64,000 nucleotides of DNA, taken from positions 1 to 64,000 of the forward strand of contig JAFUAA010000042.1 in assembly GCA_017460915.1 (NCBI GenBank), given 5' to 3'. Below are positions 7,388 to 57,739 of the stretch, in pieces. The DNA comes from Bacteroidales bacterium. GTDB lineage: Bacteria; Bacteroidota; Bacteroidia; Bacteroidales; F082. The notes beneath the pieces are model-generated. The model saw only the letters and a program-made list of their open reading frames with translations, made no database searches and was not told where the DNA came from. Position 1 is the stretch's first letter, and each line of letters begins with the position of its first letter. Made by a program: the position numbers and the translations under genes.

Positions 7388-10300
7388 TTACTTAAACGCA
7401 TTCTCGCTCAGTCCCTTGCCGCTCAAGGCCAAGTCCTTCATGTAGCCAGGCACCTCCTTGCCGAGGTACTTGTCAACATAAATCTTGGCGAGGTATTGGC
7501 CGAGCATGAAGCCGTGGCCACGCAAACCCGTGAGCAAACCGACTTCGGGGTCGACGATGTAGCGCGGCTCGGTGTAGCGACCGGCCCAGCAAGCGAGGAA
7601 ACTGACTTCACCCAGGTTGGGTATCCACTCGGCGAAGACCTCGGAGACAATCTCCAAGAACTCCTTGCTGTTGTATTTGATGTTCTGACGGGCCTCGTAA
7701 GCGTCGGTGTCGGGGCTGGCGCAACCGATGATCTGGCCGGTGTGCGCCCACTGCTGTCCGTAGACGGCGCTGAAGCCTTTGTAGTGACGACGGTCGATGA
7801 TCATGTCCAACGGGCCACCATTGGGTCCCATCATGGGCAAGCGGCGCGTGATGAAGGCTTGGTGCTTCACTGGATAGAGACCCGTGTCTAAGCCTAGCAT
7901 ATCGTTGAACTTTTCAGCACCCCAACCCATCGCGTTGACGAAGTGGTCGCAGGTGTATTCGATGAACTCTCCTTCGTGGTTGCGCACCAAGGTGACATAG
8001 TGCCCGTTGACCTTCTGCACATGCAGCAGCTCGCAGTCCTCGAAGTAGCGTCCACCGTTCTGCACACCAATCCAGCGGATGTAGTCGATGACGCGGCCAG
8101 GCGTGGCTTGCCAGCAGTCGCGGGTGATGAGGGCGTGGCTGTAGATGTCCTTGCTGTCGTCCCACAGCGGCGAAATCTCCTTCTTAAAGTCCTTGCGTTC
8201 AATCATATAGGCGTCGCTCCAAGCGCGTGAGGCATCGAGCGAGTTGTAGGAGGCTTCATCGTGTACCAAGTTGACGTAATGCGTCAAGTGGTAGTTGATG
8301 TTGTGTTCGGCCTGCATCTTCTTGAAAATCTCGTGGTTGTGTACGGCGATGTCAGCGATGTCGGGGTTGGAGAAGGCCGGACGACCGCCACCGATGCAGC
8401 GCCACGAAGCGCCACGGCTGTAGTTGATCATCACGGGTTTCTTGCCGGCTTCCGAGAAGTAACGGAACAAGGCACTGCCCGCGATACCGCCACCCGCGAT
8501 GAACACCTCGACCTGTTCTTTCTTCACGCCATTCATTTCGGGGAAGATGAAGGTCTCTTTGGTGTGTGGATTGTAGAGGTCGCCGAGGCTGACTTGGTTC
8601 GACAACGGAGCACGCGGCGTGGCGTCGCCCACCAACTCGATGCCGTAGGAACGCAAAATCTGACGGGCGCGCGGGATGCAACGCTTGCCACGGCAGGGAC
8701 CCATACCCATGCGGGTGATGTGCTTCAGCTCATCGACGGAGATGGTCTTGCGGTTGCCGATGACGCGCAACACGCGGTCGAGTTTGATGTCTTCGCAGTG
8801 GCAGACGTAGGTCTCGCCTTCGGCAACTTTATTAGGGGCGAGGGGTGTAGTGAGTTCTTTGTTGGCGTTGTAATGGTCTTTCAGGATAAAGCCCTTCACA
8901 TCTGTCAGTTCGAACACCATGCTTGCCTCTCCAGAAGGACGTGAGGAGCGGGCTTTCACCCGAGCCACGTTGGTCTTGTTCGACTTCTTGAGGATCTTAT
9001 CGATGAAGCCTTCGCCAATCATTTGGCCATCGTTATCAACGAGATAGACTTCTGCACCTTCCTTGACTTCGTATTCGATAGGAAGGAAGCAGGTGGATTT
9101 CTGCACGTCGTAGCCGAAGATGGCCAGACCTGGGCAGCTGGAGACGCACAGCATACAGCCGATGCACTTGTCGTAGTCAATGGTCGGTGTGCTGCTGGTG
9201 GAAGGCTTGCTGATGGCACCTTGCGGGCAACTGAACGAACAGGGGTTGCAGGCGAAGCCGTAGAGGCAGTCGGCTTGCACGAAGGCCTTGAGCTGCATGC
9301 GCTCGGGCGTGGGCAGGTTGGGCTTTTCGAGCAAGCGGACGGGATGCTGTTGCGAGTCGATATACTGGCGCGAAATGTCCAAATAATCGTCATAGTTGAA
9401 GCGCACGCCGATGGCTTGGGCCACCTCGTAGGCGACCTGCTTGCCACGCAGCACGGCGCTGGTGCCTTCGCCGATGCGAATGGCGTCGCCGGCACCGTAG
9501 GTATTGAGGCCGAACACTTCACGACCTTTCGCAAGCAATTGATTGTCAGGAATCAAGCCAGTGCAAATATTGATGATATCGATGTCGTCGATGACTTGTT
9601 CCGTTCTGGGAACGGGCTTGAAGTTCTCGCACTTGGCGATGACGGCGCCCGTGACGCCCGTGTAGTCGGCGTTAGGAATGGCGCGAACCAAGGTATAGCC
9701 CGTCATAATCGGGATGCCGAGACGGCGCACACGGTTGGCCTGTACGGGGAAACCGCCCTCGCGCGGCATGGCCTCGATGATGGCCTTGATGGTGGCACCA
9801 GCCTGCATACCTTGGTAAGAGGTCAGGTAGCCGATGTTGCCGGCACCCACGGTGAGCACTTTCTTACCTAATAAGGTGTGCTCTTGGTTCATCATCTTTT
9901 GAAACACGGCAGCGGTGTAAACGCCTGGCACGTCGTCGTTTTCGAAGGTCGGCATGAAAGGCACGGCACCCGTGGCGACCACAAGGTGCTGGGCGTCGAT
10001 GTAGCCTATTTCGCCGTTGACGATGTTCTTGATGGCCACGCGACCGCCTTCAAGCAAGTCCCAAACGGTGTTGTTCAGCAGGATGCCTTCGTGGTTGTCG
10101 CCAGCCAAAGTCTTGGCGATGTCGAAGCCACGCATACCGCCGAATTTCTTTTCCTTCTCGAAGAAGAAGAACTGGTGCGTCTGCATATTGAACTGACCGC
10201 CGATGTTGGCGTTGTTGTCCACCACTATGTTGCTGATGCCGAAGGCGTTGAGTTGCTCGCGGCAGGCAAGGCCCGCCGGACCCGCGCCGATGATGGCGAC

Positions 10301-47000: not shown

Positions 47001-47909
47001 TTATTTCGTCAGCTTCTGGAAGGCCTCCTCAAAGCTCAAGTCTTCTTTTTGCAAGGTCTTGATGATGAGGGCGCGGTCCACCGACCATTTCATCAGGTTG
47101 GCGCGGATGTCGGTGTCGCCTTGCGGCTCAAGGATCCAATGGTTTTCTTTTACGCGCTGCACTTTGCTCACCATCGGGATGCTGCGCAAGAGGCTTTCGC
47201 TCACCTCGCTCTCAAACTCCACGATGATGACGTTGCTGGCCGAGTTTTCCTGTTTCAGGTTCTCGATTTTGTCGTCGGCCACCACTACGCCTTTATTGAT
47301 AATGATGGCGCGTTCGCAGATGGCTTCCACCTCCTGCATGATATGGGTCGAGAGGAGGACGGTCTTCTCCTTGCCGAGGTTGGAGATGAGGTTGCGGATG
47401 TCGATGAGCTGGTTGGGGTCGAGGCCAGAGGTGGGCTCGTCGAGGATGAGCACCTGAGGGTCGTGCATCATGGCTTGGGCCAAGCCCACGCGTTGGCGGT
47501 AGCCCTTCGAGAGGGCACCGATTTTCTTGTGCGCCTCAAGGCCGAGGCCTGTCTCGTCGATCATCTCGTCGATGCGTTTGTGGGCGGCTTCGCCTTTCAG
47601 TTGGTGCACGCCAGCCACAAATTCCAGGTACTCGCGGACGTACATGTCCAAGTAAAGCGGGTTGTGCTCCGGCAGGTAGCCCACGATGCGCTTCACGGCC
47701 ATCGGGTCGTCGGTCACGTCGTGGCCTTCGACGCTCACCGTGCCCGAAGTGGGCGGGATGAAGCAGGTGATGATTTTCATCAGCGTGGACTTGCCCGCGC
47801 CGTTGGGGCCGAGCAGGCCGACGATACCTTTATTGATAGAGAGCGTGACGTCATTCAGGGCGAGTTGCTCGCCGTAACGCTTGGTGATATGGTTGATTTC
47901 GATGGACAT
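47001..47909 (-). CDS. gldA: ABC transporter ATPase, GldA-like
   Basis: The 302-residue protein has Walker A GPNGAGKST near 38, signature LSKGYRQRVGLAQA, Walker B VLILDEPTSGLD and the H-loop STHIMQEV. The order and length fit GldA, which with GldF and GldG belongs to the gliding/T9SS-associated ABC transporter of Bacteroidota. GldF/G are not in this window, so the name is likely but not certain. Confidence 0.7.
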   Translation of the reverse strand: MSIEINHITKRYGEQLALNDVTLSINKGIVGLLGPNGAGKSTLMKIITCFIPPTSGTVSVEGHDVTDDPMAVKRIVGYLPEHNPLYLDMYVREYLEFVAGVHQLKGEAAHKRIDEMIDETGLGLEAHKKIGALSKGYRQRVGLAQAMMHDPQVLILDEPTSGLDPNQLIDIRNLISNLGKEKTVLLSTHIMQEVEAICERAIIINKGVVVADDKIENLKQENSASNVIIVEFESEVSESLLRSIPMVSKVQRVKENHWILEPQGDTDIRANLMKWSVDRALIIKTLQKEDLSFEEAFQKLTK

Positions 47910-47928
47910 TTTTCGCGATTATTTGGCT

Positions 47929-47937
47929 GCAAAGGTA
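47929..47937 (-). promoter_or_regulatory. Promoter -7 box TACCTTTGC for gldA
   Basis: GCAAAGGTA on the plus strand, 20 bases before the gldA ATG. Confidence 0.6.
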
Positions 47938-48063
47938 AACATTTTGAGAAAAAGGGCAAAAAAACGATAAACACGAAGATGTTTTCCCAAGCCCTCTCAT
48001 TAAAAAATATCGAAAATCAGAAAAAAATATCGAAAAATGTTTGCGATGATGTAAAAAAAGTTG

Positions 48064-48072
48064 TATATTTGC
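48064..48072 (+). promoter_or_regulatory. Cassette promoter 1, TATATTTGC
   Basis: A perfect TAnnTTTGC box with a TTTG at 48039-48042 as -33 element, spacing 21. It is repeated at 51202 and 52735 with the same flanks. The ATG of the leader frame is 20 bases downstream. Confidence 0.75.
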
Positions 48073-48092
48073 CCTGTCAAACACCCGTTCCC

Positions 48093-48221
48093 ATGACGAC
48101 GAGACGCCTACATACGACGCCCCATCCTCTTTCGAGGCGAGTTCTCCGCCAATCGGAGTGGCAGGCCCATTGGCTTGCGAAGGGAATGTGGTGGCTTGGC
48201 AAAAACCGATTCATCAGTTGA
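48093..48221 (+). CDS. Leader frame, type A (42 residues, Trp-rich)
   Basis: It starts MTTRRLHTTPHPLSRRVLRQ and ends MWWLGKNRFIS. It is basic with four Trp within 17 residues. The unit 4 copy differs at two residues. It may be a true small protein, a leader peptide that controls the genes below, or just the trace of a structured RNA. No known family is recognised. The first base is about 20 bases from the promoter box, so the transcript would be almost leaderless. Confidence 0.45.
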   Translation: MTTRRLHTTPHPLSRRVLRQSEWQAHWLAKGMWWLGKNRFIS

Positions 48222-48279
48222 AGCCTCTGTAATCATGCGGCTTGCCGTTTACGGAGGCGAAGAACATCGACAGGCAACG

Positions 48280-48326
48280 GAAAAAGTCACGTTAGGAGAA
48301 GGACCAGAGTTGGTAACGCCTTTTTC
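48280..48326 (+). promoter_or_regulatory. Hairpin between leader frame and peptide gene (unit 1)
   Basis: GAAAAAG...CGTTA pairs with TAACG.CTTTTTC around a 19-base loop. The unit 4 copy (52951-52997) keeps both arms. It could attenuate transcription before the peptide gene. Confidence 0.45.
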
Positions 48327-48389
48327 TTGATCCACACAAAACCAAACGCTATCCGAGCGTTTTCGGAAAAACAATCAAAATCTAAGAAA

Positions 48390-48605
48390 ATGAAGAAATT
48401 AGTTAGAAAATCAATGTTTGTCCTGTCTTTTTTGGGACTGTTCACGTTTGGCGTGCCGAAGCAGGCGAAGGCGGACAGTATCTCACCATGCACAACATAT
48501 CATGTGACTTGTGCGGATGGCACCGTGCATAATGTGATTGCATGTGATTATGAAGAGTTACTAGAAGGTGTTATGGTCGCATGTAATATCAGCATTCAGA
48601 AATAA
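48390..48605 (+). CDS. Small secreted cysteine-rich peptide, unit 1
   Basis: The 71-residue product has the signal peptide MKKLVRKSMFVLSFLGLFTF ending in QAKA. The mature part of about 43 residues starts DSISPCTTYHVTC and has four Cys (C...C...C...C) with C.DG and E...GVMVACN. The signal peptide is nearly identical to those of units 2-4, while the mature part differs strongly. Even Cys number and periplasmic export point to disulfide bonds. I do not recognise the family. It is followed by a GLPGLI gene after 107 bases. Confidence 0.75.
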   Translation: MKKLVRKSMFVLSFLGLFTFGVPKQAKADSISPCTTYHVTCADGTVHNVIACDYEELLEGVMVACNISIQK

Positions 48606-48712
48606 TACATGCTTATGGAAAGCAATAGGCCATGTGTTTAGAGAAACCAATATGCATGGCCTATTGTGCTACAATTATACAAAGTAATAATCAAAATTAA
48701 AACGATAGCAAT

Positions 48713-49540
48713 ATGAAAAAGATAGTCTTAATAGCAGCATTGTTATTAATGATTTGCGGTTGTTCATTAGGTCAATCGTACACTGTACTAGATAAACCGA
48801 AGTTGCTTGTTCAATACGAACTAACGTATAAAGAAGATTCCACGCATTTAGATTATGTCAACCACGAAAACCAAATGCTTCTCGTGGGAAACACAGTGAG
48901 TAGTTATCAAAGTTTTAACAGGTATAGGCTTATGTCAGATTATAGAAAAGCCATAGAAGAAGGCAATTTCGATGCGTGGCGTTTAGGAGGGGGGATAACT
49001 CCAGAATCTTATGGTGCCAGATACAGTTATGTCATTTTCAAAAATTATCCTAAAGGTAAAATGACGGTAACTGAAAATGTGCTTACGGTGGGGTCTTTCG
49101 TTTATGAGGAAGAACTTAATTCATTTGATTGGCAAATACTTGATGACACAATGCTTGTGGACGGTTATCGGTCGCAGAAAGCAGTTTGTAGTTTCGGAGG
49201 CCGCACATGGGAAGCATGGTTTGCGGATGAGTTGCCGTTCGATGAAGGCCCATGGAAATTTAGTGGTTTGCCTGGACTGATTCTGAAAGTTGCTGATACA
49301 CGTGGCCATTACTCCTTTGAGATGATTTCCATCGAAGTGCCGGATGAGAACATGAAAATTGAGTGGGAGGATAAAAATCGTATGAAGACTACAAAAAAAG
49401 GTTTTTTCAAAGCAGAGGATTTGGGGCGATCCACCATACAAGATAACATGGAAGGGACTGGTAATTCGCTGGAGATGGCAAAAGCAGCAGGTGCAATTGC
49501 TGCATCTCGCAACAACCCCATCGAACTCGACAGGAAATGA
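48713..49540 (+). CDS. GLPGLI-family secreted protein, unit 1
   Basis: The 275-residue protein has a signal (IAALLLMICGCSLGQ; a lipobox-like CGC is present). It has the family motif GGRTWEAWFADELPF...GPWKFSGLPGLILKVAD near residues 160-195. The GLPGLI (Porph_ging) family is common in Bacteroidota, often beside TonB-receptor-like genes. Its function is unknown. It ends SRNNPIELDRK, a tail shared with unit 2 and with the fossil at 55077-55118. Confidence 0.85.
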   Translation: MKKIVLIAALLLMICGCSLGQSYTVLDKPKLLVQYELTYKEDSTHLDYVNHENQMLLVGNTVSSYQSFNRYRLMSDYRKAIEEGNFDAWRLGGGITPESYGARYSYVIFKNYPKGKMTVTENVLTVGSFVYEEELNSFDWQILDDTMLVDGYRSQKAVCSFGGRTWEAWFADELPFDEGPWKFSGLPGLILKVADTRGHYSFEMISIEVPDENMKIEWEDKNRMKTTKKGFFKAEDLGRSTIQDNMEGTGNSLEMAKAAGAIAASRNNPIELDRK

Positions 49541-49597
49541 AAAGGAAATATCGAAAATCAGAAAAAAATACCGAAAAAGGCTTGCGATAATGAAATA

Positions 49598-49606
49598 AAT
49601 ATTTGC
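49598..49606 (+). promoter_or_regulatory. Cassette promoter 2, AATATTTGC (weakened box)
   Basis: Same position as the boxes in units 1, 3 and 4, but the T of the TA pair is replaced by A. The unit may be transcribed less, or by read-through from unit 1. Confidence 0.5.
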
Positions 49607-49626
49607 ACCATCAAACACCCGTTCCC

Positions 49627-49926
49627 ATGACGACGAGACGCCTACATACGATGCCCCACCGTTTTTCGAGACGAGTTCTCCGCCAAGCGGAGTGGCAGGC
49701 TCATTGGCTTGCGAAGGGAATGTGGTGGCTTGGGAAAAACAAGTTCATCAGGTTTTTGGCCACCGATGCCAAAACGGGCATTGGCTTCTGCATGGGTGGT
49801 AATCATCCGACATGCGGTAGGCTCTATAGGGTTGGCGTTATAAGGAAAGTGTTCTCCCGTTTTGCCACGAAGGGCTTTGTTGAAAAGCCTATGAGGAGAA
49901 ACAATGAACGGATTAAAAAATCATAA
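49627..49926 (+). CDS. Leader frame, type B (99 residues)
   Basis: It starts MTTRRLHTMPHRFSRRVLRQ and continues past WWLGKNKFI with TDAKTGIGFCMGGNHPTCGR. Compared with the unit 3 copy, a 3-base deletion near 49841 keeps the frame, and the text around it stays similar (VGVIRKVFSRFATKGF against VGVMARKAFYRFATMGF). That favours real coding. It is basic; no known family. Confidence 0.5.
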   Translation: MTTRRLHTMPHRFSRRVLRQAEWQAHWLAKGMWWLGKNKFIRFLATDAKTGIGFCMGGNHPTCGRLYRVGVIRKVFSRFATKGFVEKPMRRNNERIKKS

Positions 49927-49938
49927 AATTGAAATAAA

Positions 49939-50172
49939 ATGAAGAAATTAGTTAGAAAAACCATGTTTGTCCTGTCTTTCTTGGGACTTTTCACGTTTGT
50001 TGCACCGAAACAGGCGAAGGCCGCACCTCCAAAGTACCCTTACACGGCTGAGATTTGCTGTGATGACGGTAATTGCTATTATTGTTTGTGTCAGTTTGAA
50101 GGAGACGAGGAAATATGGAAATCGATTATGTGTCCATCAACGGGTGGACCAGGCGGCCCTGTGTCTAATTAA
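49939..50172 (+). CDS. Small secreted cysteine-rich peptide, unit 2
   Basis: The 77-residue product shares the signal peptide MKKLVRKTMFVLSFLGLFTF and QAKA with unit 1. The mature part has six Cys (ICCDDGNCYYCLC...SIMC) and ends GGPGGPVSN. It keeps the C.DG element. A GLPGLI gene follows after 124 bases. Confidence 0.75.
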   Translation: MKKLVRKTMFVLSFLGLFTFVAPKQAKAAPPKYPYTAEICCDDGNCYYCLCQFEGDEEIWKSIMCPSTGGPGGPVSN

Positions 50173-50296
50173 AGTAATCGGCAATGAGGATGAGGAGGGA
50201 GTGAACCATAATTATAGGTGACTTGTCTTTAAATCATCACAAGATAATCATCTCCTCGTCCTTTTTGTTTTTGGTGTGTTACAAAAATTAGATGAT

Positions 50297-51139
50297 ATGA
50301 AGAATAATACTATTGCAATTACGTTGTTTTGTTTTCTACTTTGTCATTCTGTGTTGGCTCAAAAGGATAATTGTCCTTTCGATTCGCTTGACGTTGCTCG
50401 TTTACAGGTTATGTATGACTTGACATATACCGAAGACACGACACATTTGGAATGGAGAGGGACAGAAAGGATGCTTTTGCTTTTAGGTAACGAAATGTCA
50501 TATTTTGCCAGTTATAAGCACTACAGACTTGACAGGATCCGTTATCAGAAAATGCAGGACGGCACATACTGGGAATGGTTTCGCGACGAATCTTCAGGCT
50601 ATGTCGGCAGATATTTGTATCAGTTGTTCAAAGGCTTCCCAAGAGGGAAGATGACAATGACGGATATCATCTTTCTTACTGGAAAATTTATGTATGAGGA
50701 GGATTTGGGACTTTTCGAATGGAATATTCTTGAGGATACAATGACAATAGAAGGTTTTCTTTGCCAAAAAGCAATGTGTAATTACGGAGGTCGCACTTGG
50801 GAGGCTTGGTTTACTGATGAGCTTCCGTTCAGCGATGGCCCCTACAAGTTTCACGGTTTGCCCGGGCTAATCTTAAAAGTGGCAGATACAAAAAATCATT
50901 ATAGCTTTGATTTTGTTTCTGTTGAGGTGCCTGCACAAGGGACAAATATAGAGTGGTACCACGGAATTGATGGCACTGAATACGTTGTTACTACAAGAAA
51001 TAAATTAAAAATAATTGAGGATGACCTGCGCGAAAACATAATGAGCCAGTTTGACGAGTTGACAAGCCCGGATGCCCAAAAAAGAATGTATGGCGTAATG
51101 CAATCTCGCAACAACCCCATCGAACTTGACAGGAAATGA
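50297..51139 (+). CDS. GLPGLI-family secreted protein, unit 2
   Basis: The start is taken at ATG 50297 (MKNNTIAITLFCFLLCHSVLAQ signal peptide). The 280-residue protein has GGRTWEAWFTDELPF...GPYKFHGLPGLILKVADT. It is clearly homologous to units 1 and 3 over its length but diverged, while its last 11 codons (SRNNPIELDRK) match unit 1 closely at the DNA level. This suggests recombination or conversion at the end. Confidence 0.85.
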   Translation: MKNNTIAITLFCFLLCHSVLAQKDNCPFDSLDVARLQVMYDLTYTEDTTHLEWRGTERMLLLLGNEMSYFASYKHYRLDRIRYQKMQDGTYWEWFRDESSGYVGRYLYQLFKGFPRGKMTMTDIIFLTGKFMYEEDLGLFEWNILEDTMTIEGFLCQKAMCNYGGRTWEAWFTDELPFSDGPYKFHGLPGLILKVADTKNHYSFDFVSVEVPAQGTNIEWYHGIDGTEYVVTTRNKLKIIEDDLRENIMSQFDELTSPDAQKRMYGVMQSRNNPIELDRK

Positions 51140-51201
51140 AAAGGAAATATCGAAAATCAGAAAAAAATACCGAAAAAGGCTTGCAATGATAAAAAAAGTT
51201 G

Positions 51202-51210
51202 TATATTTGC
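51202..51210 (+). promoter_or_regulatory. Cassette promoter 3, TATATTTGC
   Basis: The same box and flanks as promoter 1, including AAAAAAAGTTG just upstream. Confidence 0.7.
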
Positions 51211-51230
51211 CCCATCAAACACCCGTTCCC

Positions 51231-51515
51231 ATGACGACGAGACGACTACATACGATGCCCCACCGTTTTTCGAGACGAGTTCTCCGCCAAGCGGAGTGGC
51301 AGGCCCATTGGCTTGCGAAGGGAATGTGGTGGCTTGGGAAAAACAAGTTCATCAGGTTTTTGGCCACCGATGCCAAAACGGGCATTGGCTTCTGCATGGG
51401 TGGTAATCATCCGACATGCGGTAGGCTCTATAGGGTTGGCGTTATGGCGAGGAAAGCATTCTACCGCTTTGCCACAATGGGCTTTGCCTATGAGGGGAAA
51501 TTAACTGAGTACTAA
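51231..51515 (+). CDS. Leader frame, type B (94 residues), unit 3
   Basis: Nearly identical to the unit 2 frame through GNHPTCGRLYRVGV, then VMARKAFYRFATMGFAYEGK. It is separated by 19 bases from the peptide gene. Confidence 0.5.
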   Translation: MTTRRLHTMPHRFSRRVLRQAEWQAHWLAKGMWWLGKNKFIRFLATDAKTGIGFCMGGNHPTCGRLYRVGVMARKAFYRFATMGFAYEGKLTEY

Positions 51516-51534
51516 ATCCTAAAACTGAACTAAA

Positions 51535-51768
51535 ATGAAGAAATTAGTTAGAAAAACCACGTTTGTCCTGTCTTTCTTGGGACTGTTCACCTTTGTTGCA
51601 CCGAAACTGGCGAAAGCGGAATCTGGTCCAGAAACTGAACCTGGGCAATTTTGTGCAAAGTATACTTGCACGAATGGGCTTAACGGGTATATATGTGGCC
51701 CAGATGAACTCATTGTCTATAAGGCAATTGCCGAGATATGTGGCATCCAAATCGAGGTTTTGGATTGA
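51535..51768 (+). CDS. Small secreted cysteine-rich peptide, unit 3
   Basis: The 77-residue product has the shared signal MKKLVRKTTFVLSFLGLFTF and KLAKA. The mature part is acidic with four Cys (FCAKYTC.NG...ICG...EICG). Its cysteine order is like that of unit 1 (C, TC.xG, C, C). A GLPGLI gene follows after 79 bases. Confidence 0.75.
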   Translation: MKKLVRKTTFVLSFLGLFTFVAPKLAKAESGPETEPGQFCAKYTCTNGLNGYICGPDELIVYKAIAEICGIQIEVLD

Positions 51769-51847
51769 TAACACAATCATACGCTGAAAAAGGGGATGGG
51801 AATGACCATTCTCATCCCCAAATACCTAACAAGTAAATCCAACAACT

Positions 51848-52690
51848 ATGAAAAAACATGTATTAGCCCTACTATTGTTGGCTTGTGCAATCTCAAGCCA
51901 AGCCCAAGGATTGGACAATGAAATCCAAGTCCTTGATGATGCCAAGCTGAAGGTCATATACAGATTGACCTACATTGAGGATACCAACCAAATCAAGCAT
52001 GAAGACAAGGAAAAGATGCTGCTCCTGATAGGAAATGAAGTCAGTTGGTTCCAAAGCTACAACCATTACCGGCTGAATCACCTCGTCCGAAAGCATCGGC
52101 AAGAAGGAACTTTGGACGTTTGGAGAAAAAGCGGTGAGGGGATGCGATACGCGAGCAAGTTGCTGTATTCCGTTTACAAGAACTATCTGGCGGGAAAAAT
52201 CATGATAACGGATGTCCTTTCGATGACCAATCAGTGGTGTCTATATGAAGAACCTATCCTTGACTTTCAATGGGAAATAAAGGAAGACACGGCTGAGATT
52301 ATGGGCTTTCACGTCCAAAAAGCCGTCTGCGATTTCGGAGGGCGCACTTGGGAGGCTTGGTTCGCCGAGGAATTGCCATACAACGACGGCCCATACAAGT
52401 TTTCCGGTTTGCCAGGCTTGATTCTCAGCGTTGCCGATACGAAAAACCATTATCGTTTTGAGTTGGTTTCCGTTGAAGATCCTGATCCTGACACGAAAAT
52501 TGAGTTTGAGGAACAAGAATACATGAGGACCACCAAGGAAGCTTTCATGGGTGCATTAAGCAATGACATCGACAACATTGTGGATGAAGTGATGGAAACC
52601 ATCACAACAAATGGGTCCGAGGATGCGATGAGAAGAAGGATTTACGAAATTATCAAATCGAAAAACAACCCCATTGAAAGAGGTTTGTGA
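51848..52690 (+). CDS. GLPGLI-family secreted protein, unit 3
   Basis: The 280-residue protein has the signal peptide MKKHVLALLLLACAISSQAQ. The motif region is GGRTWEAWFAEELPY...GPYKFSGLPGLILSVADT. Base composition is more GC-rich than that of units 1 and 2, so this copy may have entered from a different source. Confidence 0.85.
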   Translation: MKKHVLALLLLACAISSQAQGLDNEIQVLDDAKLKVIYRLTYIEDTNQIKHEDKEKMLLLIGNEVSWFQSYNHYRLNHLVRKHRQEGTLDVWRKSGEGMRYASKLLYSVYKNYLAGKIMITDVLSMTNQWCLYEEPILDFQWEIKEDTAEIMGFHVQKAVCDFGGRTWEAWFAEELPYNDGPYKFSGLPGLILSVADTKNHYRFELVSVEDPDPDTKIEFEEQEYMRTTKEAFMGALSNDIDNIVDEVMETITTNGSEDAMRRRIYEIIKSKNNPIERGL

Positions 52691-52734
52691 TATAATAAAG
52701 AAGAAATTTCCGTTGTAATTAGAAAAAATAGTTT

Positions 52735-52743
52735 TATATTTGC
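52735..52743 (+). promoter_or_regulatory. Cassette promoter 4, TATATTTGC
   Basis: The same box, followed by CCCCGTCAAACACCCGTTCCC as in the other units. The upstream AT block of units 1-3 is replaced. Confidence 0.7.
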
Positions 52744-52763
52744 CCCGTCAAACACCCGTTCCC

Positions 52764-52892
52764 ATGACGACGAGACGCCTACATACGACGCCCCATCCTC
52801 TTTCGAGGCGAGTTCTCCGCCAAGCGGAGTGGCAGGCCCGTTGGCTTGCGAAGGGAATGTGGTGGCTTGGCAAAAACCGATTCATCAGTTGA
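52764..52892 (+). CDS. Leader frame, type A (42 residues), unit 4
   Basis: Differs from unit 1 by Ser to Ala and His to Arg only. It ends MWWLGKNRFIS. Confidence 0.45.
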   Translation: MTTRRLHTTPHPLSRRVLRQAEWQARWLAKGMWWLGKNRFIS

Positions 52893-52950
52893 AGCCTCTG
52901 TAATCATGCGGCTTGCCGTTTACGGAGGCGAAGAACATCGACAGGCAACT

Positions 52951-52997
52951 GAAAAAGTCCCGTTAGGAGAAAGGCCAGAGTTGGTAACGCCTTTTTC
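52951..52997 (+). promoter_or_regulatory. Hairpin between leader frame and cargo gene (unit 4)
   Basis: GAAAAAG and CGTTA arms face TAACG and CTTTTTC, as in unit 1; the loop differs by a few bases. Confidence 0.45.
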
Positions 52998-53060
52998 TTG
53001 AGCCACACAAAACCAAACGCTATCCGATCGTTTTCGGAAAAGCAACTTAAATCTAAAAAA

Positions 53061-53798
53061 ATGAAGAAATTAGTTAGAAAATCAATGTTTGTCCTGCCTT
53101 TTTGGGGACTGTTCATAGGTATGCTTAGCATGACGTCTTGTAAAAAAGAAATGCAATTCAGTTGCGACCCAGAAATCCATAGATGGGCTAAAGAGAATAC
53201 TGATAGATTTCAAGAAATCACACGTGAACAATTGGCAACTCTGCCTCTTCCACTCGCTCAGGCTGCCTATCGTACACTAACCCCGGAGAAGAAATTCGAA
53301 TTCTGGAACGAGAAATTTGACATTGTATATTCACAATGGGACGCTCCTGTTCGTGAAATGATAGATGACATGAGGTCTCACATAACCGTCAGTTGGTTTA
53401 ATCCGAATTTGGGTGCGGTAGACAAAGATTACATTGATTCTTGGGAAAACATCATGTTGACCGAATGGATGGATTCGACCAACTATAATCTGAGTTTTTG
53501 TCTGATATACACTGAAGATGAGTTTTATGCACTAGAGAATTCCTCAGGGGATAGAGATTGCTCTTGGGCAAATGTGCCCTCAGGGCTTATGGAAAAATAT
53601 ATGCCTTCCCAAAAGTCTCCAAGAGATAGTGGCGTAGGTACATGTACTTGTTTATGGAATTCGTCTTGTCCAAAGGGAGAAAAGTGTAAGAGCCCAAATT
53701 GTCATAAAACTCTTGAGGGATGTGGCTTTGCATGGCTTTCTCGTTGTACCAAGATCTGTGTGAAGGACGAGTCTGATGACATTATAATAGTTCTTTAA
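53061..53798 (+). CDS. Fulvocin C-related lipoprotein on a cassette signal peptide
   Basis: The 245-residue protein starts MKKLVRKSMFVLPFWGLF, the shared cassette start, then has a lipobox (MLSMTSC). A middle domain follows (LATLPLPLAQAAYRTLTPEKK). The C-terminus has eight Cys in the order C-x-C-x5-C-x5-C-x4-C-x6-CG-x2-W-x3-C-x3-C (from CTCLWNSSC to CTKIC). Fulvocin C of Myxococcus and the related Bacteroidota proteins have nearly this spacing, including GCG..W. I therefore call it fulvocin C-related; whether it is cut to release a bacteriocin is unknown. The stop touches the next ATG (TAAATG). Confidence 0.7.
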   Translation: MKKLVRKSMFVLPFWGLFIGMLSMTSCKKEMQFSCDPEIHRWAKENTDRFQEITREQLATLPLPLAQAAYRTLTPEKKFEFWNEKFDIVYSQWDAPVREMIDDMRSHITVSWFNPNLGAVDKDYIDSWENIMLTEWMDSTNYNLSFCLIYTEDEFYALENSSGDRDCSWANVPSGLMEKYMPSQKSPRDSGVGTCTCLWNSSCPKGEKCKSPNCHKTLEGCGFAWLSRCTKICVKDESDDIIIVL

Positions 53799-55007
53799 AT
53801 GGACGACCAAACTAAATACAAGAAAGGCTTTTATGCCTTTTATCTCATCGTAGGCGTATATGTGGCCGTGATGTATCTTTTGTGTGCCTCCCGTGGAGAA
53901 CAACGTTCATATAGCATAATGATGAACCTATCCCTTTCTTTTGGCATTTTCTCGGGCATTTGCTTCGTTGAGGCAAACAAGGCAAAACGTTGGTTAGTAC
54001 CTTTGTTTTTGGGTGTGTTATGGGGTGTGGGAGCTGTCATAGATTCAAATTCAAGCATATGGAGCCAGAGTATTGTCCGCAGGGATTTGTATTACCTTCT
54101 TCTTCTCTTCGTGCCATTGCTTGCAGTATGGGCATTGTCAAGGATCAAAAAAGGCCAAAATCTTGTCAAGACCTTTGTTGGTGCGGTGTTTGCCCTGTTC
54201 TCGCTTGGCTTTTTACCAGGCAGAGGAAAGTTGGAGCCGCTATACGACATATTGCTTGTGGTGATGGCTATGGCTGCTTTTGCCATGGTGACCCTAAACC
54301 AAAACCGCCGCCAGCGCTGGATTTCATTGTTGGTTTTTCTGGTCATTTATTCCTACATGGTCATCGCAAATCCCTATGGTAATTTGGTCTTGTTTGTCCT
54401 TGTGGCGGTTGCCTTGTTGGTGGTGGTGGGAATCCTATCGGCCGCGTGGAGCGCCAAAACCAAGAAGAAGGCTTTCGTTGTCACGGCTTGCCTGATGTCG
54501 GCCATTGCGGTATTTGCCATTCCATTATGGTCGAGTTATGCCTTGCATCGTTTTGAGTATCCAGAACACGCCATTCCCGTTAAGGAGCAGGTGAAATTCG
54601 AGAGCGCCTTCACCACCCCCGAAAACGACACCCTTACGCTGGAAACGCTTCACGGGAAGACTGTCGTGCTCTATTTTTGGTCGGCTTCTTGCGGCACTTG
54701 CCATGCCATGATGCCGGATTACTCGGCCTTTGCCGAGTCCTACGCGGATGTTCCCGACATAATCTTCTATGCTGTCTTCATGGGCGAAAAGGAGAGGGAA
54801 CTGAAGCATTATGAGGAGATGGCGGTCCATGAATACGCTTTCCATTGGGCCAAAGCCCTCGATGCAAAAGAAGTGATGGGAAAAATGAGGTTCAACTCGT
54901 TCCCTCATCTCACGATTGTTTCCCCCGACGGGATGGTGGTCTATAATGGCATAGCCGATTTCCAACGGATGAATGTCTATCATCCTCGAAGATACCTGAA
55001 GCGTTGA
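53799..55007 (+). CDS. Membrane protein with C-terminal thioredoxin domain (TlpA-like, CGTC)
   Basis: The 402-residue protein has about eight membrane helices in its first 250 residues, then a periplasmic thioredoxin fold: VVLYFWSASCGTCHAMMPDY with the redox pair CGTC, and FNSFPHLTIVSPDG with the cis-Pro. It should handle disulfides in the periplasm, probably those of the Cys-rich lipoprotein encoded directly upstream; the two are coupled at TAAATG. Its last codons run into the fossil end of a small-peptide gene. Confidence 0.75.
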   Translation: MDDQTKYKKGFYAFYLIVGVYVAVMYLLCASRGEQRSYSIMMNLSLSFGIFSGICFVEANKAKRWLVPLFLGVLWGVGAVIDSNSSIWSQSIVRRDLYYLLLLFVPLLAVWALSRIKKGQNLVKTFVGAVFALFSLGFLPGRGKLEPLYDILLVVMAMAAFAMVTLNQNRRQRWISLLVFLVIYSYMVIANPYGNLVLFVLVAVALLVVVGILSAAWSAKTKKKAFVVTACLMSAIAVFAIPLWSSYALHRFEYPEHAIPVKEQVKFESAFTTPENDTLTLETLHGKTVVLYFWSASCGTCHAMMPDYSAFAESYADVPDIIFYAVFMGEKERELKHYEEMAVHEYAFHWAKALDAKEVMGKMRFNSFPHLTIVSPDGMVVYNGIADFQRMNVYHPRRYLKR

Positions 55008-55051
55008 TTGAAGGAGTCATGTTAGCTTGCAACGTCAGTGTTCAGAAGTAG
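54998..55051 (+). pseudogene. Fossil 3' end of a cassette Cys-peptide gene
   Basis: Reading from 54998 gives EALIEGVMLACNVSVQK and TAG. The unit 1 peptide ends EELLEGVMVACNISIQK. The first 10 bases overlap the end of the thioredoxin gene in another frame. Confidence 0.75.
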
Positions 55052-55076
55052 TAAATAAGGTTTATGATACACAATA

Positions 55077-55118
55077 GCTACATCCCGCAACAACCCCATC
55101 GAACTCGACCGGAAATGA
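55077..55118 (+). pseudogene. Fossil 3' end of a GLPGLI gene
   Basis: Reading from 55077 gives ATSRNNPIELDRK and TGA, as in units 1 and 2 (AASRNNPIELDRK). The TGA overlaps the ATG of the TonB-receptor-like gene (ATGA), so the lost GLPGLI gene was once coupled to it. Confidence 0.8.
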
Positions 55119-57739
55119 AACCGCTTTGGATCCATATCGTTTTGTTTTTGCTGTTGTGCAATGCGCTTTCCGCCCAAACCGTCATCAGCGGCAGCGTGAA
55201 AGACACGGAAGGCGAGACTTTGCCCAACATCAAGGTGCTGGCGTATAAAGCCGGTTCGCGCATCATCGTGGCCTACGCGGGCACGGACAACGATGGTCGC
55301 TACAGTCTTTCCGTCACCGCCGAGGCCGACAGTCTGGATTTGGCCACCTCGTCGCTGTTTTTCGAGAAGCAGACCAAACGCATCGCCAACCGTAGCCAGA
55401 CAATAAACTTCTCTCTCCGCGAAGAAGTGCAAGAGCTGAAAGGCGTCACCGTGCGCGCCCGAAGCATCGAGCAGAAGGGTGATACGCTGGAGTATGTTGT
55501 CGGCTCCTTCGTGCAGAAACAAGACAAGAGCATCGAGGACGTGTTGAAGCGGATGCCCGGCATCGAAGTGGCCGACGACGGCAAAATCACCTACCAAGGC
55601 TTGCCCATCCAGAAGTTCTATGTGGAAGGAATGGATTTGATGGGCGGCAGTTATGCCTCCATCAGCAAAAACTTGCCGCACCAATCGGTGTCGTCGGTCG
55701 AGGTGTACGAGAACCACCAGCCCATCAAGATGCTGGAGGACCGCGTCAGCTCCGAGCAGGCTTCCATCAACATCAAACTCGCCAAGGACGTGGCCCTCAC
55801 CGGTACGGCCAAGGTGGGCTTGGGCGCGTGGCCCTTCCTTTGGAACGTCAACCTCACTCCCATGCTCTTTTCCGGCAAGGTGCAGATGCTGGCCGCCTAT
55901 CGCACCAACAACACAGGCGACGACCTCACGATGTACAGCCGAATGCTGGCCTTGGAGAACCTGCAAGGCGAGCGACCCGCCAAGTTGGGCGAGGAACTCA
56001 GCATCAAGCGGGCCAGCACGCCGTTGTTCAACACGAACCGCTATTTGGACAACCACACGCACCTTATTAATTTGAACACGCTGTTTCCCGTCAGCGAAAA
56101 CACCACCTTGCGCGTCAACCTCTATTATCTCAACGACTTGCGCAAGCAGTCCGTCAGCCAAAGCAATACGCTTTACTTCGCCGCTGACACTTTGGCCTAC
56201 ACCGAGCAAATCGACAACCGCCTGCGCGACAACCAATTGTTCGGCACCATCACGCTCAACCGCAACGACAAGGCTTATTATTTAGACAACAAACTCAATT
56301 TCTCCAAGGCTTGGGACAACGCTTTCGGCCTCGACGTGAACAACGGACTTCCAGTCGGCCAAACGCTGAAAACGCCTGCTTTGTCGGTGGATAACGACTT
56401 GAGGCTCATCATCCCCATCGGGAAACGCCTATTGGACTTCACTTCCTATATCGGCTATGGGCAAACGCCACATCGTCTTGAAGTGGAGCCTGGGCAATTC
56501 GCCAACCTGCTCAACGATAGCCTTGCCTATGCCAAGACCGTTCAAGAGTTGAACACACGTCAATATTTCGCCGACCACGCCGTCAGTGCCATCTTTTCGG
56601 CGGGACGATTCACCATCCGGCCCAAGGTGGGTTTCCTTTTCGTGGAACGACAGATTGCCTCGCAACTGACGCTTTCCGACGGCGAAACCGATTGGCAAAG
56701 CGAACTTGCCCCCGATGCGCAAGTGAAGCGGCGCAACGTGAAGCCTTATCTCACCGCTGAGGTGGAATACAAGCGCAAACGCTTCTCGGCAGGAGTAGAT
56801 TTGCCGCTGAGCCTGCAAGCCGTTTCGGTGCAGAGCGAGAGCAACAGCGACCAAATGACAAAACTCTTGTTCAATCCCGTCGTTTGGAGTCGCCTGAAAC
56901 TCGGCAACTTCTGGACGCTCAATGCCTCGGCGCGAATGACCCACAGCGTGGAAAACTACGATTCGTGGATGGACACCTATCTCCTCACCGACTATCAGGA
57001 TTTGGTGCTGCGCAAGGCGCCGCTTTCGCTGTCGCGCACCTTGTCGGGCAGCTTTGGCGTGCAGTTCAAGGAACCGTTCATTTCCTTGAACACCGATTTG
57101 CGCTATGGCTTCGGTCACACCCACAGCGAAAACATGTACCGCTACGAAGTGGGGGAGGGCGGCACGTCCTTGCTGCAAGTCGTGGCCCTGCCCAACGACC
57201 GTTTCTACCAAACCTTGAGTGGCAGCGTCAAGAAGTATTTCTCGCCCATTCGCACCAGTATCGGCTTGAAAGGCAATCTGTTGGATTCCAAAGGTGTTGC
57301 GTTGGTCAACGAGGCATTAATGAACACGCATTCCGTTTCCTACAGCCTCTCGCCCTCTCTGATGTTCAAGGTGACGGAGTGGCTGAATGTGGATTATTCG
57401 CTGAATTACAACAAAATGTACGCTTTCATCGATGAGCAAAAACGCAGCGAAATCACCTATTGGCGGCATTTCGGCAAGGCTTTCGCTTTCCTGAAACGCA
57501 ACCAAACCGTGAGTTTGACGGCGGAGTATTACCGTCACCAAGGCCAGCCTTACCTCTTCGTGGATGCCAGTTATGAGTTTTCCGTCAAGCAGCCCAGACT
57601 CGACTTCGAGGTGCGCTGGAACAACATTTTCAACAGCAAGAAATACGTTTCGTACTATTCGGGTGCGTTTTCGATGCAAGAAACCGTTTACACCCTCCGC
57701 CCGATGGAACTGACAGCCTCGGTTCGTTTCAGATTTTGA
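55115..57739 (+). CDS. TonB-receptor-like outer-membrane protein with carboxypeptidase-regulatory domain
   Basis: The start is taken at ATG 55115 (MKPLWIHIVLFLLLCNALSAQ), which overlaps the GLPGLI fossil stop. The 874-residue protein has a CarboxypepD_reg-like domain (VISGSVKDTEGETLPNIKVLAY), a plug-like part (EDVLKRMPGIEVADDGKITYQGLPIQKFYVEG), then a large beta-barrel ending in an aromatic strand (LTASVRFRF). Such proteins are typical neighbours of GLPGLI genes. No TonB box is certain. It may carry peptides or nutrients across the outer membrane; its role with the cassette products is inference. Confidence 0.8.
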   Translation: MKPLWIHIVLFLLLCNALSAQTVISGSVKDTEGETLPNIKVLAYKAGSRIIVAYAGTDNDGRYSLSVTAEADSLDLATSSLFFEKQTKRIANRSQTINFSLREEVQELKGVTVRARSIEQKGDTLEYVVGSFVQKQDKSIEDVLKRMPGIEVADDGKITYQGLPIQKFYVEGMDLMGGSYASISKNLPHQSVSSVEVYENHQPIKMLEDRVSSEQASINIKLAKDVALTGTAKVGLGAWPFLWNVNLTPMLFSGKVQMLAAYRTNNTGDDLTMYSRMLALENLQGERPAKLGEELSIKRASTPLFNTNRYLDNHTHLINLNTLFPVSENTTLRVNLYYLNDLRKQSVSQSNTLYFAADTLAYTEQIDNRLRDNQLFGTITLNRNDKAYYLDNKLNFSKAWDNAFGLDVNNGLPVGQTLKTPALSVDNDLRLIIPIGKRLLDFTSYIGYGQTPHRLEVEPGQFANLLNDSLAYAKTVQELNTRQYFADHAVSAIFSAGRFTIRPKVGFLFVERQIASQLTLSDGETDWQSELAPDAQVKRRNVKPYLTAEVEYKRKRFSAGVDLPLSLQAVSVQSESNSDQMTKLLFNPVVWSRLKLGNFWTLNASARMTHSVENYDSWMDTYLLTDYQDLVLRKAPLSLSRTLSGSFGVQFKEPFISLNTDLRYGFGHTHSENMYRYEVGEGGTSLLQVVALPNDRFYQTLSGSVKKYFSPIRTSIGLKGNLLDSKGVALVNEALMNTHSVSYSLSPSLMFKVTEWLNVDYSLNYNKMYAFIDEQKRSEITYWRHFGKAFAFLKRNQTVSLTAEYYRHQGQPYLFVDASYEFSVKQPRLDFEVRWNNIFNSKKYVSYYSGAFSMQETVYTLRPMELTASVRFRF

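Follow-up and report, generated by a model that had tools for sequence, protein, structure and literature searches.

Short translated leaders placed before the genes they control are known from leader-peptide attenuators and arrest peptides such as TnaC, ErmCL and SecM. A similar arrangement heads each of four tandem gene units in the Bacteroidales bacterium DNA analysed here (positions 1 to 64,000 of contig JAFUAA010000042.1, assembly GCA_017460915.1; this whole stretch of 64,000 nucleotides (nt) is called the window): a short translated open reading frame (ORF), whose peptide end is conserved, and a hairpin behind it precede the gene that would be controlled. Unlike TnaC, ErmCL and SecM, leaders of the window type carry another motif, precede many different exported cargo genes and show no general intrinsic terminator. 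The analyses make it probable that they represent a conserved control element, combining leader peptide and hairpin, of exported-peptide operons whose cargo turns over by way of the shared 5′ parts.

In B. thetaiotaomicron, short ORFs in long 5′ untranslated regions have been called reminiscent of leader peptides preceding coding genes (PMC7366714). These are likewise suspected leader peptides in Bacteroidales, and the accessible part of that article describes no such motif or cargo class; the accessible part of PMC2965389 contains no term beginning with Bacteroid-. The string GKNKFI is absent from the 5.39 million papers of the literature searched, whose scope left out preprints and most subscription journals, and the titles and abstracts among the matches listed for leader or arrest peptides of Bacteroidetes or B. 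thetaiotaomicron hold none like it. Leaders of this kind stand before other cargo at further places in the genome and in related genomes, and this points to a control element for exported, fast-changing peptides that appears undescribed.

The cargo also has described relatives. The three GLPGLI proteins of the window, at 168-177 bits, all exceed the TIGR01200 cut-off of 50 bits and occur here in linkage with a receptor-like gene and a small peptide rich in Cys, a link for which the literature searched, available in part, yielded no description. The lipoprotein of unit 4 passes NF033852 (cut-off 35 bits), a model named as no more than fulvocin C-related, and differs from that family in that its leader and signal start are those found in the peptide cassettes. 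As to the Bacteroidetes radical SAM systems for ribosomally synthesized and post-translationally modified peptides (RiPPs; TIGR04149 and TIGR04148), a like leader stands before each of two KGG precursors, with a GLPGLI gene next, on contig C33 of the genome holding the window (G, C and L label genomes, contigs and loci; this genome is G000). The C33 locus also has a TIGR04148 maturase, an exporter and a receptor-like gene; one of its precursors scores 20.6 bits with TIGR04149 (cut-off 25) and the other has no match. Unlike TIGR04149 systems, the window peptides PEP1-3 have Sec-type signals and no match to this model of radical SAM-modified precursors; no Pfam or NCBIfam model scores above cut-off for the Cys-rich peptides, and no maturase was found among the ten window proteins scanned. 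The C33 locus (L085:5202-9581) is itself a second cassette array, in which leader, KGG precursor and GLPGLI gene occur twice with different Cys-rich cores; the 46-codon piece lying between the cassettes is a duplication scar that, by eye, copies the 5′ end of the radical SAM gene at 9585.

The features of the array and of the receptor-like gene behind it are as follows.

48064..48071, + strand: unit 1 promoter, -7 element TATATTTG
48093..48221, + strand: unit 1 leader ORF, type A, C-terminal LGKNRFIS then stop
48223..48258, + strand: unit 1 hairpin, 1 base past the leader stop codon
48390..48605, + strand: unit 1 Cys-rich exported peptide PEP1
48713..49540, + strand: unit 1 GLPGLI protein (TIGR01200, 171.1 bits)
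49627..49926, + strand: unit 2 leader ORF, type B, contains LGKNKFIR
49764..49785, + strand: unit 2 hairpin, within the long reading of the leader ORF
49939..50172, + strand: unit 2 Cys-rich exported peptide PEP2
50297..51139, + strand: unit 2 GLPGLI protein (TIGR01200, 167.6 bits)
51231..51515, + strand: unit 3 leader ORF, type B, contains LGKNKFIR
51368..51389, + strand: unit 3 hairpin
51535..51768, + strand: unit 3 Cys-rich exported peptide PEP3
51848..52690, + strand: unit 3 GLPGLI protein, 85% orthologue in G020 (TIGR01200, 177.2 bits)
52691..52745, + strand: unit 4 promoter region, by eye of the G023/G018 GLPGLI-receptor type
52764..52892, + strand: unit 4 leader ORF, type A, C-terminal LGKNRFIS then stop
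52894..52929, + strand: unit 4 hairpin, 1 base past the leader stop
53061..53798, + strand: unit 4 fulvocin C-related lipoprotein, common MKKLVRK signal start (NF033852, 69.5 bits)
53799..55007, + strand: unit 4 membrane protein with thioredoxin domain (Pfam)
55010..55054, + strand: scar, PEP1-like gene end (EGVMLACNVSVQK and stops; 72% over 60 nt, E 2e-5)
55072..55118, + strand: scar, GLPGLI gene end (SRNNPIELDRK and stop), overlapping the receptor start (91% over 47 nt, E 2e-16)
55115..57739, + strand: TonB-dependent-receptor-like gene, kept in the genus (three domain matches below Pfam cut-offs)

An initial annotation of this DNA had described four tandem units with a common leader and an MKKLVRK gene start, leaders in the order A-B-B-A, and the cargo of each unit, and in these respects it holds. 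The leader copies lie at 48065, 49599, 51203 and 52736; TCAAACACCCGTTCCC occurs in every unit, as do the MTTRRLHT frame and an MKKLVRK start of the first gene. Units 1 and 4 (type A) are 85-100% identical per 40 columns from promoter through signal peptide, and units 2 and 3 (type B) 97-100% identical as far as the hairpin, whereas A and B leaders agree at 87-95% over their common first half and then at about 45% or less until the signal. When like units are compared, DNA identity above 90% drops to 33-53% at or shortly past the signal peptide. The family models bear out the GLPGLI, fulvocin-related and thioredoxin-domain assignments. The promoters had been called conserved, but unit 2 lacks 5 nt of its promoter and has no TANNTTTG, which is present in units 1, 3 and 4, and the promoter of unit 4 is unlike those of units 1-3, resembling by eye the GLPGLI-receptor operon promoter of G023 and G018.

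A search of related Bacteroidales genomes for the leader and the genes behind it, as that annotation had proposed, finds related leaders elsewhere with different cargo; its counter-case, a leader confined to this locus and the same cargo everywhere, is not what is seen, yet at the DNA level the full 330-base leader has close copies in this locus only. BLAST with the window leader recovers only the four array copies in G000, and across the genus more than promoter or gene start is shared only by G020 and G088; the short matches of the leader query in 24 of 99 and 29 of 173 genomes cover nearly always promoter or gene start only. Loci L039-L064 were rejected as leader homologues, the searched start being found only in L044, at an unrelated gene. 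A motif from within the leader has matches in 6 of the 11 genomes searched and none when reversed, and a DNA search with an element of G056 has matches in 9 of 99 genomes and at five places in G000.

Covariance models extend this picture. Model R1 was made from 15 copies with a hand-drawn hairpin; units 1 and 4 and G056_C126 were excluded from it, and units 2 and 3, G020 and G088 were never part of it. A first alignment fold was set aside, RNAalifold having chosen another, weak structure and units 1 and 4 standing one base out of register. In 22 chosen sources R1 finds all four window leaders (E 1e-4 to 1e-3 in 351 kb) together with those of G020 and G088; at E ≤0.01 it has matches in 15 of 99 genus genomes, eight of the matches being in G056, in a search where units 2, 3 and G088 fell below stricter filters or the limit. 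Model R2, which includes window copies, gives ten matches in G000, nine of them distinct (the four of the window, two on C22, one on C2 and two on C33, which C47 repeats). These nine leaders head three Cys-rich peptides, two fulvocin-related lipoproteins, two KGG-type RiPP precursors, each then followed by a GLPGLI gene, and two other lipoproteins, and the exported gene starts about 100-210 nt past the leader motif. As judged by sequence comparison, elements of this kind head Cys-rich peptide/GLPGLI, fulvocin/thioredoxin, KGG RiPP/GLPGLI and varied lipoprotein operons in G000 and its relatives.

Several observations on individual loci belong here. The C33 and C47 copies are the same locus on two contigs of the assembly. 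Runs of about 15 C lie in the leader region of the G056 leaders L139/L155 and L141, where length variation would shift the leader frame. In several species (L086, L070, L146, L175-L177, L081) the leader lies 3′ of a small exported protein gene, presumably of the DUF3244 type, with no promoter, so that a leader can also sit inside an operon. A leader-headed lipoprotein on G000 C22 (L144, gene from locus position 1885) has a glycine-rich hydrophobic end (GFICTGGVGGFVAGTFNAF) that looks bacteriocin-like by eye. On G087 C74 (L136:164-223) lies a SAM-II riboswitch (63.8 bits; gathering score 44).

The claim of the initial annotation that cargo is exchanged behind constant 5′ parts gains from three patterns: an abrupt change at the end of a signal sequence, GLPGLI types that differ beside the conserved receptor-like gene, and scars around the cargo of unit 4. 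The first is seen where the leader of G000 C2 stands in synteny with that of C39 in the sister species G023. Identity is 88.7% over 4,289 bases, spanning upstream genes, leader and about 80 bases of a lipoprotein gene, and there is none beyond; matches per 20 bases from the start codon run 20, 17, 15, 16, 9, 5, 5, 5, 2, 4, and the two cargo proteins, of 220 and 108 residues, are unrelated. Lipoprotein genes on G056 C252, G056 C246 and G000 C22 likewise share leader and signal and then differ.

The second pattern emerges from the receptor-like gene, at least 80% identical in 15 of 98 other genus genomes (one match being a fragment); 14 of these 15 loci were compared, together with six further regions. 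A GLPGLI gene lies 5′ of the receptor gene with a 4-nt overlap in all 14 loci, the ABC transporter of the window lies upstream in 11, and a Cys-peptide gene is present in three (G020, G087 and G088), in G087 with a thioredoxin gene as well. In the receptor tree the window species pairs with G023 (support 100/100), while the receptor-adjacent GLPGLI protein of G023 groups with another GLPGLI protein of G087 (100/100), and that of G069 with the first GLPGLI protein of G088 (100/99), near GLPGLI 2 (86/74). This conflict between the two trees implies that the receptor stays and its neighbour gene changes, though some of this may be accounted for by deletions among tandem GLPGLI genes.

The third pattern lies in unit 4. 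Directly 3′ of its thioredoxin gene stand two remnants. The first, of 60 bases, matches the 3′ end of the PEP1 gene at 72% identity and reads EGVMLACNVSVQK and a stop; the second, of 47 bases, matches a GLPGLI gene end at 91% and overlaps the receptor start. Because of these scars and the promoter that by eye is like that of G023 and G018, unit 4 appears to have replaced part of an older operon made up of peptide, GLPGLI and receptor genes. A fulvocin-thioredoxin pair, with a leader 5′ of it, recurs in G056 (66% fulvocin-like protein) and on G000 C22 (38%), and on G087 C29 a fulvocin fragment lies 5′ of a thioredoxin gene.

A plain tandem family would read the array differently: duplicated units, their 5′ ends kept alike by gene conversion or selection, would have diverged in place in their mature parts and imported no cargo. 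The mutual homology of PEP1-3 and of the three GLPGLI proteins suits this account, as do the G023 and G069 patterns, which GLPGLI duplication and deletion explain. It is nonetheless unlikely, since the cargo of unit 4 comes from another family and sits between scars, GLPGLI 3 has its orthologue (85%) in G020 directly 3′ of another GLPGLI gene with neither leader nor peptide before it, and the unrelated C2 and C39 cargo follows 4.3 kb of sequence that is 88.7% identical. Cargo exchange by recombination is, in our judgement (which here and below is not a computed value), likely: the pattern is observed and the event inferred from it, and part of the variation is explained by GLPGLI duplication and deletion.

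That the leader is also translated is indicated by its constant part, which encodes a peptide ending near (L/I)GKN(K/R)FI. Among 39 in-frame copies (a fortieth row, L161, was mis-set and is excluded) G is kept in 34, K in 37, N in 39, K/R in 38 by way of six codons, F in 38 and I in 33, and the 25 distinct motif copies depart from the commonest base 8, 16 and 49 times at codon positions 1, 2 and 3. The same end occurs 5′ of Cys-peptide genes in five other families (IGKNKFIG, VIGKNKFD, KLGKNKFD, RLGKNKYD and QIGKNFFL), and the motif persists where the remaining element does not. Searched for as [GV]KN[KRF][FYIV] within 300 bases upstream, it precedes 15 of 17 Cys-peptide genes, units 1-3 and G020/G088 not being independent; shuffled sequence would give 0.08, and among control ORFs the motif precedes 2 of 301. 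An occurrence 5′ of a G073 lipoprotein gene looks like chance and was dismissed. We consider it very likely, on this sequence evidence, that the leader is a translated cis element.

The hairpin is a second conserved part. Across 41 model matches, in an alignment fitted to the model structure, double-sided changes affect 8 of 9 pairs, in 34 cells; shuffles give 8.0, and none of 500 reaches 34. Over the 75 bases past the motif, folding is on average more stable than in shuffles (mean z -2.03; z is below -1 in 30 of the 43 copies), and part of the loop is conserved. Such covariation and loop conservation, together with the eight model matches in G056 that mark a multicopy element, would also fit a structured RNA or DNA element, whether a protein site, a riboswitch or a small mobile repeat, with an incidental GKNKFI frame. 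This is improbable, more so than the tandem family, given the third-codon-position bias, the Lys/Arg exchange, the persistence of the motif without other parts of the element and the placement of copies before genes in one orientation; moreover, Rfam 15 has 0 matches at E ≤1 in 47900-55200 and none on the element in 8 loci. The notion in the initial annotation of the leader as a landing frame survives in that shared 5′ parts stand before swapped cargo, but the leader also holds a translated peptide and a covarying hairpin. As both are kept between species and families, it is most likely regulatory, and recombination within it may be a by-product of homology.

An array assembled in error from repeated leaders is very improbable: repeats of about 300 bp and the presence of one locus twice in the assembly (C33, C47) would favour it, but GLPGLI types 2 and 3 and the receptor-like gene occur together at the same place in G020, GLPGLI type 2 occurs in G088, and the scar enters the receptor start with the usual 4-nt overlap.

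The favoured explanation, a leader-peptide and hairpin control element with cargo turnover, would work as follows. Each cassette is headed by a conserved cis element consisting of a promoter, a short leader, very likely translated, with (L/I)GKN(K/R)FI and a hairpin, followed by the exported gene. Translation of the leader, or stalling on it, would set the state of the hairpin and so gate the cargo genes; our judgement leans slightly towards such attenuation or stalling. Because leader and signal are nearly identical in several copies, homologous recombination there, together with GLPGLI duplication and deletion, would change the cargo and leave control and export in place, and such changes may have built the four-unit array upstream of the conserved receptor-like gene. 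It is tempting, though rather unlikely to be right in full, to go further and see in GKNKFI a new class of nascent-chain-sensing leaders, marking out a Bacteroidales regulon whose exported peptides recombine (Sec peptides rich in Cys together with their GLPGLI and receptor-like proteins, KGG RiPPs and fulvocin-like lipoproteins); the leader would gate expression and also serve as a homology arm for effector exchange.

Several results weigh against this explanation. Leader ORF length varies much, the shortest having 14 codons, and in units 2 and 3 the leader ORF can be read past the hairpin. The motif is absent before three of 18 peptide genes (L094, L096 and, by eye, the eighteenth, L091). In an unfitted 15-row alignment 98.5% of hairpin cells pair and only one pair shows double changes; a U-run 3′ of the hairpin is seen, by eye, only in L089, so an intrinsic terminator is not general. 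The DNA search with the G056 element left the window leaders unmatched at E 0.001, and across the order R2 matched 5 of 393 genomes, the three outside the genus at E 0.003-0.007 (in two of these the motif stands 5′ of an exported gene). By a permissive rule, which 124 of 239 control ORFs satisfy as well, 31 of 40 leader copies are followed by a signal-like gene; of the other nine, six run off the contig, two precede KGG precursors and one is unclear. For unit 3 this rule picked a small frame that is not the gene; the peptide gene itself has a signal. Finally, as the C2 contig ends soon after the change, only the left breakpoint is visible at C2/C39.

As to what the cargo does, the peptide, the GLPGLI protein and the receptor-like product probably work as partners, either at the outer membrane or outside it. 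The gene product is called receptor-like since its TonB-receptor domains score below the Pfam cut-offs (CarboxypepD_reg 30.3 bits against 32.3, CarbopepD_reg_2 26.8 against 32.2, Plug 16.5 against 23.9). A profile of ten Cys-rich peptides has matches in 17 of 393 order genomes, G000 among them, and outside G000 a GLPGLI gene lies 3′ of the Cys-peptide gene in 8 of 16 loci (L089-L094, L096 and L099). A PDB match of the profile to a biofilm surface protein was dropped, being the sum of two repeats (domain E 2.3), and a weak match of GLPGLI to PNGF-II (E 0.08) is a lead only. A PADLOC scan gave no defence system match, and there were no matches of the leader DNA to plasmids, of PEP3 to phages or of the peptide profile to viral contigs. 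The cargo may comprise bacteriocins, signals or metal carriers; an antagonistic locus is conceivable, and in our judgement falls somewhat short of an even chance.

GLPGLI proteins, a family of unknown function that the literature searched names in three papers, are here connected with specific partners (a small exported peptide rich in Cys and a receptor-like protein) and with a defined control element. As a short search handle, the GKNKFI leader gives access to operons of exported, fast-changing peptides, candidate bacteriocins included, and makes what these operons sense testable with reporters.

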